A DNA stretch of 64,000 nucleotides from Pyrobaculum sp. WP30 (GTDB lineage Archaea > Thermoproteota > Thermoprotei > Thermoproteales > Thermoproteaceae). Each line of letters opens with the position of its first letter. The first letter of the stretch is position 1. Under the pieces are notes generated by a model. That model worked only from the letters and a program-made list of their open reading frames with translations, was not told the DNA's origin and did not search any database. The stretch spans positions 558,001 to 622,000 of the forward strand of contig CP012158.1 of assembly GCA_001189275.1 (NCBI GenBank), given 5' to 3'. A program made the translations under genes and the position numbers. Positions 3,168 to 10,045 of this stretch are shown piece after piece.

Positions 3168-3545
3168 CTACTCACCGTACATCGACCTGTCGCCGAAGAA
3201 AGCCTCCACCCTCTTGGGCTTAAGCCTAGATGCTATATAGTCAAAAGCCGCCTTGGGGTCTGTGTGGTCGCCACAGGTATATACATCAACTGTGGCGAAG
3301 CCGTGCTCCGGCCATGTGTGGATGGAGATGTGGCTCTCCGCCACCACGGCGAACACCGTGAGGCCGCCGTCCGGGCCGAACCTGTACGAGCCTATGGAGA
3401 GCAACATGGCGTTAGCAACCTTTACAGCCTCTTTCACTATGGTTATCAAAGCCGCCTCGTCTCTCAACACGTTCTGATCACACCCGTATAGGTTGCCGTA
3501 GACGTGTCTCCCGACGACCAATCTGCCCCCCACGCCCCCCGCCAT
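3168..3545 (-). CDS. speD: SpeD-family pyruvoyl decarboxylase proenzyme (arginine or S-adenosylmethionine decarboxylase)
   Basis: A 125-aa proenzyme with the self-cleavage site Glu70-Ser71 in the context AESHISIHTWPE. Ser71 would become the pyruvoyl group. His76 and Cys91 sit at the catalytic spacing seen in prokaryotic AdoMet decarboxylase (Ser+5, Ser+20). Crenarchaea use paralogues of this family both for S-adenosylmethionine and for arginine decarboxylation in polyamine synthesis. The GRHVYGNLYGCD start resembles the arginine-type enzymes, but specificity cannot be settled here. A TATA-like TTTTTAAACTG lies about 30 nt upstream. Confidence 0.88.
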   Translation of the reverse strand: MAGGVGGRLVVGRHVYGNLYGCDQNVLRDEAALITIVKEAVKVANAMLLSIGSYRFGPDGGLTVFAVVAESHISIHTWPEHGFATVDVYTCGDHTDPKAAFDYIASRLKPKRVEAFFGDRSMYGE

Positions 3546-3692
3546 GGGTTATGCGTATTTCCGCAGTTTAAAAACTTAACCCCCAAAAACCCTTATACTA
3601 CAGCTTTGTACCTGCACATACCCTACTTGTTAAAATATTGGAAGACCCCTGGAAAAATATAAAGAGATAAAATGGGAGACTTTTGAAAAAGT

Positions 3693-3791
3693 TTACCACT
3701 CCTCTTCCTCCTCCCACTCCTCCTCAAACTCCTCCCAGAGCTCCTCCTCCTCTTCCCACTCCTCCTCTTCCCGGTAGTACCAAATCGGCAT
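3693..3791 (-). CDS. Glu/Trp-rich acidic microprotein (32 aa)
   Basis: The frame begins MPIWYYR and then consists almost only of Glu and Trp, with one Leu and one Phe. It has 19 Glu and 5 Trp. Trp12, Trp19 and Trp26 are exactly seven residues apart, with Leu18 and Phe22 between, giving a heptad-like hydrophobic face on a very acidic helix. A TATA element centred near 3814 lies about 24 nt before the ATG. The low-complexity GAG/GAA run is therefore in frame with a proper start, promoter and stop. I know no family for it; function is unknown. Confidence 0.5.
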   Translation of the reverse strand: MPIWYYREEEEWEEEEELWEEFEEEWEEEEEW

Positions 3792-3810
3792 AGGCCCCCC
3801 GAAAGCTTGA

Positions 3811-3820
3811 TTTTATAAAT
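3811..3820. promoter_or_regulatory. shared bidirectional TATA element
   Basis: TTTTATAAAT is near-palindromic. It lies about 26 nt before the GTG at 3840 on the plus strand and about 23 nt before the ATG at 3791 on the minus strand, the spacing expected for leaderless archaeal transcripts in both directions. Confidence 0.5.
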
Positions 3821-3839
3821 ATTGAGCCGCAAAACGTCG

Positions 3840-4400
3840 GTGAGGCGGGCGTATGTGCAGGGTCTTCTGCAGAGGCGTGTTAAGTACCGGTTCGACCTCC
3901 CCGCGCCGACATCCATCAAGAGCTGGCTGGCTGAGGTCCGTCAAGAAGTGAGGACTTTGCTGGAGAGGGATTGGGAGGCCGTCATGTGCCCCGAGGCGGA
4001 GCTACCGAGCCTGGGGATGCTTCTTGTGGAGTGGCGGGGGGCTCATCTATTGGCGGATGTCTCCATCTGCGCCCCCGTGTCTCATCCCAGGCCGCCGCCG
4101 CTGTCCTACGACGTGCCGGTGGAGAGGGTGGATGTCTGCGTCGAGCCCATCGCGCCTGTTTTTCCGCCGGCTGAATACATAGCAATACATATCCCCTCTG
4201 TCAAGACATTTGGAAGGATCACGCTACGGAGAGACTACGCCGTGGTGAAGTACAGAGGCTTATTATTCGCCACAGAGGTTAAATACGGCCCCGAGGCGAG
4301 AGGCGGCGTGGTGTTAAGCCTAGCGCGGTATCGTTGCGGCCCCTATGACGTGGGGGAAGCTCTAAAAAAATTGAAACGCATACTTTATTCAAAGTATTGA
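3840..4400 (+). CDS. hypothetical protein
   Basis: A 186-aa protein with a basic N-terminus (VRRAYVQGLLQRRVKYRFDLP). The middle contains alternating strands and several cysteines, and the C-terminus is lysine-rich (GEALKKLKRILYSKY). The GTG start at 3840 is chosen because the only TATA box is centred at about 3815; an in-frame TTG at 3822 is too close to it. The C-terminal ATEVKYGPEARGG resembles a restriction-like nuclease core, but a full motif is not present. Its stop overlaps the next ATG by one base, implying coupling to the zinc-ribbon protein. Confidence 0.65.
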   Translation: MRRAYVQGLLQRRVKYRFDLPAPTSIKSWLAEVRQEVRTLLERDWEAVMCPEAELPSLGMLLVEWRGAHLLADVSICAPVSHPRPPPLSYDVPVERVDVCVEPIAPVFPPAEYIAIHIPSVKTFGRITLRRDYAVVKYRGLLFATEVKYGPEARGGVVLSLARYRCGPYDVGEALKKLKRILYSKY

Positions 4401-4594
4401 TGAAGTACGTTGCTGTCGTGTGTCCTAAATGCGGGAGGGCAAGCGGCGCCAGGTTCGATGCGAAAAGACATCAATGTCCTTACTGCGGCGCCGTTTTCCA
4501 ACTAAACGACGCGTCTATTATCGCAATGGGCAACGCCAAGGCGGTAAGAGAGGCGGTGGCGAGGTACAACAGCGGCGAATTTAGACAGTTGTAG
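4400..4594 (+). CDS. zinc-ribbon protein, DUF1922-like
   Basis: A 64-aa protein with a CPKC...CPYC zinc ribbon in its first half and a short helix (AKAVREAVARYNSGEF) in its second. This arrangement resembles the archaeal DUF1922 family. The start ATG overlaps the previous stop (TGATG), so it is translated with the upstream gene. Such small zinc ribbons often bind nucleic acid or act as subunits of larger complexes; here the role is unknown. Confidence 0.75.
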   Translation: MKYVAVVCPKCGRASGARFDAKRHQCPYCGAVFQLNDASIIAMGNAKAVREAVARYNSGEFRQL

Positions 4595-9623: not shown

Positions 9624-10045
9624 TAAGAAATATGTGCCAGAATTATTTATGCGTTGTTGGCTGATGCATTATCACAAGCGCTGATCGCGTGGCGATAATA
9701 CTGATAGTGTACAGACCCCCTTCTTGTTGCGTCTCGGCACCTACAGAAGAGACGTAATCCGATTTCTGAACATTGTTCCAAATCCGGCGAGATACCCAGC
9801 CGTTAGTAGGTCGAATGACCTAGCCACAACAAAGGGAACCCTCATAGTTTATCACATTTCATTTGGGTCTCTGCGACTAAACACGTCTCGCCAAGCTTCT
9901 CAACTCAACAGAGCCTAGGATCCTTCTATCATAGCTACACCCGAGACTCCCAATGCAGGTATCGCGGCGGGGCCGCCTCAAGTGTCCGCCGCTCATCTGC
10001 CCCCGCTCCGGGGGAATTAACCGGTACTTGACGTTATAAGTTTTT
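9624..10045. other. 420-nt stretch without a convincing gene
   Basis: Apart from the minus-strand TATA box of the Panacea gene near 9640, I see only a weak hairpin (ATTATC at 9669-9674 with GATAAT downstream) and short, poorly structured frames. It looks like decayed accessory DNA beside the nuclease pair. Confidence 0.4.

Follow-up and report, generated by a model that had tools for sequence, protein, structure and literature searches.

A conserved Glu/Trp microprotein gene in Pyrobaculum, probably one of a Thermoproteota-wide class often found beside abce1

Several described systems resemble in part the Glu/Trp microprotein reported here. DSS1/SEM1 is small and acidic with spaced Trp and Phe, as the microprotein is, and differs in being longer, richer in Asp and provided with a C-terminal helix. 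The acidic chain with spaced Trp/Phe that marks DSS1/SEM1 is found throughout the class of look-alike genes described below (101 members). ABCE1 (Rli1) is universal in archaea and eukaryotes, and we know of no dedicated archaeal peptide partner described for it. In eukaryotes, a Trp in the N-terminal acidic motif of eIF3j/Hcr1 occupies a hydrophobic pocket of eIF3b (PMC2824034), and eIF3j assists ABCE1 (PMC7196836), the two occurring together on the 40S post-splitting complex (PMC10175282). The likeness to the microprotein lies in a Trp within an acidic run; eIF3j is also a partner at the ABCE1 recycling step (PMC2824034, PMC7196836, PMC10175282), where gene linkage suggests a putative role for the microprotein. 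However, the eIF3j motif is a short part of a larger folded protein with one key Trp, whereas microproteins of the present kind are free peptides of 20-50 aa with many Trp; sequence homology is not among the likenesses, and searches of Pfam and NCBIfam returned no eIF3j domain match for the microprotein.

The iron-sulphur clusters of Rli1/ABCE1 arrive via Yae1-Lto1, with the C-terminal Trp of Lto1 binding the loading complex (PMC4523923). Yae1-Lto1 and the eukaryotic CIA targeting tripeptide [LIM]-[DES]-[WF] resemble the microprotein in having a Trp at a free C-terminus, preceded by an acidic residue, and the client there is ABCE1/Rli1 (PMC4523923, PMC10623007). Unlike the microprotein, Lto1 carries a deca-GX3 domain, a motif absent from the microprotein sequences read, and the tripeptide differs at position -3: set against [LIM]-[DES]-[WF]-COO-, the E-E-W of the microprotein fits the last two positions and fails at -3. 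The PBP1 subunit of the Sulfolobus PolB1 holoenzyme likewise has a crenarchaeal Glu-rich C-terminus (12 Glu in 19 residues; PMC5418573), which belongs to a Cys-rich subunit encoded beside ribokinase, whereas the microprotein is a free peptide. The acidic C-terminal tip of SSB is the tail of an OB-fold ssDNA-binding protein, in contrast to the stand-alone microprotein. In Pyrobaculum TBP, the acidic C-terminal tail EEELGEEFEEEL resembles the microprotein core EEELWEEFEEEW, but it is a portion of TBP and is devoid of Trp. The TBP of Thermoproteaceae ends in an acidic tail, as read in five family genomes (L062, L072, L073, L075, L077), the Pyrobaculum form being ...EEELGEEFEEEL or similar.

The microprotein gene lies in the window, by which we mean the whole 64-kb stretch of DNA analysed, among the following features:

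3168..3545, minus strand: SpeD (S-adenosylmethionine decarboxylase), neighbour of the microprotein; adjacent gene in 12/15 genomes
3660..3692, minus strand: T-rich terminator-like stretch directly 3' of the microprotein stop; T-rich in 9/9 aligned genomes
3693..3791, minus strand: Glu/Trp microprotein gene, 32 aa, ATG...TAA; frame homologues in 15/19 genomes of the family; substitutions by codon position (1/2/3): 0/0/71
3792..3804, minus strand: short G-rich stretch immediately 5' of the microprotein ATG (TTTCGGGGGGCCT); TTTCGGGGG(G) kept in most genus genomes
3812..3821, no strand assigned: near-palindromic TATA element TTTATAAATA in the spacer of the divergent gene pair; same distance to the ATG in 9 aligned genus genomes
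3840..4400, plus strand: P0002, the divergent partner, a basic protein with four invariant Cys; also present in the 15 genomes that have the microprotein frame and in two genomes of the sister genus g3

Translation of the minus strand at 3693-3791 gives MPIWYYREEEEWEEEEELWEEFEEEWEEEEEW followed by a stop, with Trp at positions 4, 12, 19, 26 and 32. The composition given in the original prediction (19 of 32 residues Glu; Trp12, Trp19 and Trp26 seven residues apart; Leu18 and Phe22 between them) agrees with this translation in every count, as do the start and stop codons, which are ATG and TAA. A TATA had been placed at -23; a TATA-like element is indeed present and sits slightly further out, TTTATAAATA spanning approximately -21 to -30 from the microprotein ATG and some 19-28 nucleotides upstream of the GTG at 3840. 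The proposal that this element also serves the plus-strand gene gains from the conservation of both the TATA box and the divergent neighbour, which supports a predicted shared promoter for the microprotein and P0002. Conservation in the genus extends to the TATA box, the G-rich sequence ahead of the ATG and the T-rich one beyond the stop; the last of these suggests a monocistronic unit. Together with the conservation of the frame described below, these signals mark the 32 codons as a real, stand-alone gene that has an ATG, TATA box and stop to itself and is predicted to form a separate transcription unit. A composition rule for Glu/Trp frames gave no other match on either strand of the 64-kb window.

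At the DNA level, the Trp heptad is a 21-nt tandem repeat, since TRF reports 3.5 copies of a 21-bp unit at 3699-3771, inside the frame. The heptad could therefore conceivably be a repeat artefact, and for this reason we tested it by conservation. The original prediction had staked itself on conservation of the frame in Thermoproteales, and a search of 19 genomes of the family recovered homologues of the frame in 15, representing two of three genera. All 15 share the stop position, an M-P start and the core EEEWEEEEELWEEFEEEWEEEEEW, which varies by at most one lost Glu or an E-to-D exchange; length variation is confined to residues 3-7. Fitch counting over 25 core codons in the 15 species, on the tree of the neighbour P0002, counted no change at the first or second codon position and 71 at the third. 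Just two amino-acid replacements fall on this tree, both E to D. In these genomes, P0002 has diverged and is 35-65% identical to the window copy. The codon-position pattern indicates that selection at the protein level maintains the 21-bp repeat, and by this measure the microprotein is under extreme protein-level selection. The sister genus g3 holds a diverged 29-aa version, MRPFLMEEELWEEEEFEEFEEWEEEEEEW, in two genomes, approximately 420 bp upstream of abce1.

The original prediction envisaged a helical amphipath with one aromatic face. AlphaFold2, run on the single sequence, models one helix over residues 4-31 (mean pLDDT 82), in line with the helical part of that proposal. The amphipathic part fares less well: the hydrophobic moment is only weakly higher than in shuffled sequences (p approximately 0.056). 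With a net charge of approximately -18, a free helix is doubtful.

The earlier view that the microprotein belongs to no known family held in Pfam, NCBIfam and PDB and in the open-licence literature, including a search for the peptide string. A profile built from the genus found no match outside g1/g2, protein and profile searches beyond the family gave none either, and nothing matched in viral, phage and plasmid collections. Low sequence complexity keeps profile searches from reaching beyond the family, and we therefore turned to a DNA pattern encoding EEEEW-stop. Of 81 genomes in the class, 32 matched this pattern, as did 151 of the 398 in the phylum Thermoproteota, against approximately 15 genomes, as counted from the table, for the reversed pattern in the same phylum set. 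At the pattern loci we read 101 microproteins from 29 families, 18-53 aa long and consisting of 63% Glu and 14% Trp (for example, MIFEEEDEWEEGDDEEWEEEEW in f15, MIWFEEEWWEEEEEEEWEEEEEEWWEEEEEW in f16 and MIFEEEEDLWEEEEDWDEEEEDLWEEEEEEW in f32), many of them preceded by a GGAGGTGA-type Shine-Dalgarno or a TATA signal. The members have runs of Glu and spaced aromatic residues in common, and almost every one ends in W or F. Since the pattern itself demands EEW, this ending is not independent evidence in the pattern-derived set; microproteins found independently of it also end in W or F, save L276 and L279, which end in Glu. The exact seven-residue Trp spacing, real at this locus, is a lineage-specific detail that does not define the class, being dominant only in Pyrobaculum/Thermoproteus (elsewhere 1-17, mostly 4-8). 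One member, L278 (G021, f4), has Phe in place of Trp throughout, MAEEEELEEFEEFEEFEELEEFEEF, and lies upstream of abce1. Pattern and composition searches found no such gene in f17, f54, f25, f23 and most of f3.

Eight class members compared with all of Pfam at E<=10 hit no family, the DSS1/SEM1 model included. The window microprotein has what the class has, namely its own start, Glu runs broken by W/F and a C-terminal W/F, and it probably belongs to this Thermoproteota-wide class, as far as sequence can tell. We infer common ancestry of the whole class, with convergence possible, because sequences of such low complexity do not allow alignment to prove descent across families. The novelty we claim is that no known family is matched; it does not extend to a new mechanism.

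Clustering the frames that neighbour the microproteins yielded one cluster across 20 families, which blastp identified as ABCE1 (42-100% identity over the Fe-S and first nucleotide-binding domains; NCBIfam name RLI). By blastp against ABCE1, it adjoins 56 of the 101 microproteins, from 20 of the 29 families; all 56 are among the 86 loci outside Pyrobaculum/Thermoproteus. Typically, the microprotein stop lies approximately 40-530 bp upstream of abce1 on the same strand, apart from a few f15 loci 870-1,030 bp away and four divergent f16 loci. Searching outward from abce1 with the composition rule (approximately 1.5 kb upstream, 77 genomes) recovered 17 same-strand and 2 divergent microproteins of E/W or E/F type without use of the DNA pattern; an 18th same-strand match, which proved to be a Zn-ribbon protein with an acidic tail, was left out. 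Those without a pattern match come from G188, G223, G306, G185, G170, G027, G175, G147, G021 and G086/G094. The same rule applied to 237 kb of control strand sequence returned none except the window microprotein itself. In f14, f24, f35, f37 and a number of families represented by one genome, blastp detected no abce1 adjacent to the microprotein. Within the window genome, approximately 0.84 Mb separate abce1 (G000:C1:1399688-1400071) from the microprotein (561696-561791), and the abce1-adjacent position is found in the sister genus g3. Gene order conserved to this extent shows, on genomic grounds, a functional or regulatory link, which does not amount to binding.

In several families, an RPB9/TFS-like Zn-ribbon protein with a conserved EYYEVFLE tail is encoded between the microprotein and abce1 or divergently from the microprotein (L170, L171, L169, L161, L162, L165). 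We considered PBP1 as the identity of this gene beside abce1 and set it aside, PBP1 being reported beside ribokinase and the gene being RPB9/TFS-like.

The original prediction had suggested nucleic-acid mimicry or a basic partner. Because look-alikes occur phylum-wide and mostly beside ABCE1, ribosome recycling takes the lead over generic mimicry. From the linkage we infer physical binding and a step in the ABCE1 cycle, the microprotein most likely being an acidic-aromatic adaptor that works with ABCE1. Stated in full, that a stand-alone acidic-aromatic microprotein of a Thermoproteota class would work in trans with ABCE1 (Rli1) through Glu/aromatic docking, this reading is tentative, and we put it somewhat short of an even chance. 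The free peptide would be disordered or loosely helical; its Glu runs would dock on a basic surface, and its spaced Trp/Phe, chiefly the free C-terminal Trp, would plug hydrophobic pockets. Candidate sites for these pockets are ABCE1, the post-splitting small subunit or the apparatus that loads the ABCE1 iron-sulphur clusters, and the outcome could be to aid ABCE1 maturation, loading or release. In Pyrobaculum/Thermoproteus, the gene has relocated to the divergent promoter predicted to be shared with P0002, so that any action on ABCE1 there would be in trans. A further-reaching version is doubtful: an ancestral, unannotated recycling cofactor of 20-50 residues that docks on ABCE1 or the Fe-S loading machinery, as forerunner or counterpart of the eIF3j/Lto1 adaptors. 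Gene finders and profile searches could have missed such a cofactor in Thermoproteota, its length and its sequence complexity both being too low for them. Biased microproteins can escape gene finders and profile HMMs that discard low-complexity frames; here, DNA pattern and gene order together recovered the class. A peptide gene adjacent to abce1 in approximately 20 families, and nearly invariant where this is measurable, is a directly testable candidate, with genetics and ribosome-splitting assays available in Saccharolobus and Sulfolobus.

The best-surviving alternative is a general nucleic-acid mimic or multi-partner acidic adaptor, similar to DSS1 or an SSB tail, that competes with DNA or RNA for basic, aromatic-lined surfaces of several proteins, the ABCE1 neighbourhood then reflecting co-expression with translation genes rather than one specific partner. 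A net charge of approximately -18 with regularly placed Trp would suit such a role, and the Glu-rich tail of Sulfolobus PBP1 impairs DNA binding and has been proposed as a DNA competitor (PMC5418573). The genome G004 adds a case of apparent portability, as it carries the same segment as the C-terminus of three paralogous proteins of approximately 100 aa near TnpB-like genes, much like a portable docking tail; two of them end in ...LWEEFEEEWEQEDEWEEEWEEEEEW and one in ...LWEEFEEEW:

L050:1581-1901, L051:2580-2933 and L052:2447-2824: G004 tailed proteins, ending in microprotein sequence

Mobile elements thus seem to have adopted a host peptide as a C-terminal tail, and this putative capture fits a docking function that needs a free C-terminus. 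Near-invariance in Pyrobaculum/Thermoproteus, however, argues for one conserved site over loose charge competition, and a recurring association with one and the same gene in 20 families exceeds the specificity usual for co-expression. We regard this alternative as unlikely.

Rather less likely still is an iron-sulphur maturation adaptor for ABCE1, whose free C-terminal E-E-W would act like the Lto1 Trp or the [LIM]-[DES]-[WF] tripeptide in recruiting the Fe-S loading machinery. An acidic residue followed by a C-terminal W/F occurs in all members read but L276 and L279, the mobile-element tailed proteins included, and the neighbouring ABCE1 has two [4Fe-4S] clusters, for which its yeast counterpart needs a Trp-ended adaptor (PMC4523923, PMC10623007). 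Yet position -3 is E rather than L/I/M, the tripeptide is reported in CIA clients and is absent from the archaeal homologues checked (PMC10623007), the long E/W repeat is left unexplained, and the EEW ending stems partly from the search pattern.

The frame could also act in cis. Acidic runs destabilise ribosomes, and a Glu-rich frame located immediately upstream of abce1 on the same strand, as in most linked families, might as a leader peptide destabilise or stall them during its translation and so tune abce1 expression to recycling capacity. The strongest measured amino-acid constraint, though, is in Pyrobaculum/Thermoproteus, where abce1 does not lie downstream of the frame; frame and abce1 diverge at four f16 loci, a Zn-ribbon gene intervenes in f18, f65 and others, and the Pyrobaculum stop codon is followed by a T-rich sequence resembling a terminator. 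These points make a leader peptide improbable.

We give very little weight to a transcription-linked peptide that binds TBP or TFB by imitating the acidic C-terminal tail of Pyrobaculum TBP. That tail, ...EEELGEEFEEEL, is the sole other near-match to the WEEFEEEW codons in Pyrobaculum beyond the G004 elements, and in several families the gene that separates the microprotein from abce1 encodes an RPB9/TFS-like Zn ribbon; but the likeness is a single low-complexity one with three mismatches, which may be due to chance, and no linkage to TBP was seen. Hardly credible is a GAG/TGG micro-repeat open by accident and devoid of protein function, for the start, stop, TATA and T-rich 3' flank around the 21-bp tandem repeat that would prompt it are conserved, and the 0/0/71 codon-position changes rule out a repeat artefact in favour of selection on the protein.

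The adaptor proposed to work with ABCE1 forms a divergent pair with P0002 in nearly every genome that bears it, the two lying approximately 0.7 kb apart in G001. P0002 gave no match in Pfam, NCBIfam or PDB, and AlphaFold2 models from two sequences reached a pLDDT of 35. Its homologues have a pI of 9.3-10 (nine measured), keep four cysteines invariant in 17 of 17 aligned sequences and, in g3, are weak matches in two genomes; among the order genomes searched, the P0002 family is confined to this taxonomic family. SpeD and HxlB lie downstream on the microprotein strand in 12 of 15 genomes. Immediately after P0002, window positions 4403-4594 encode a 63-aa double-CxxC zinc-ribbon protein that is kept in most genus genomes, and positions 9959-10015 match the Rfam family Pyrobaculum asRNA3 (RF02793) with 77.7 bits.
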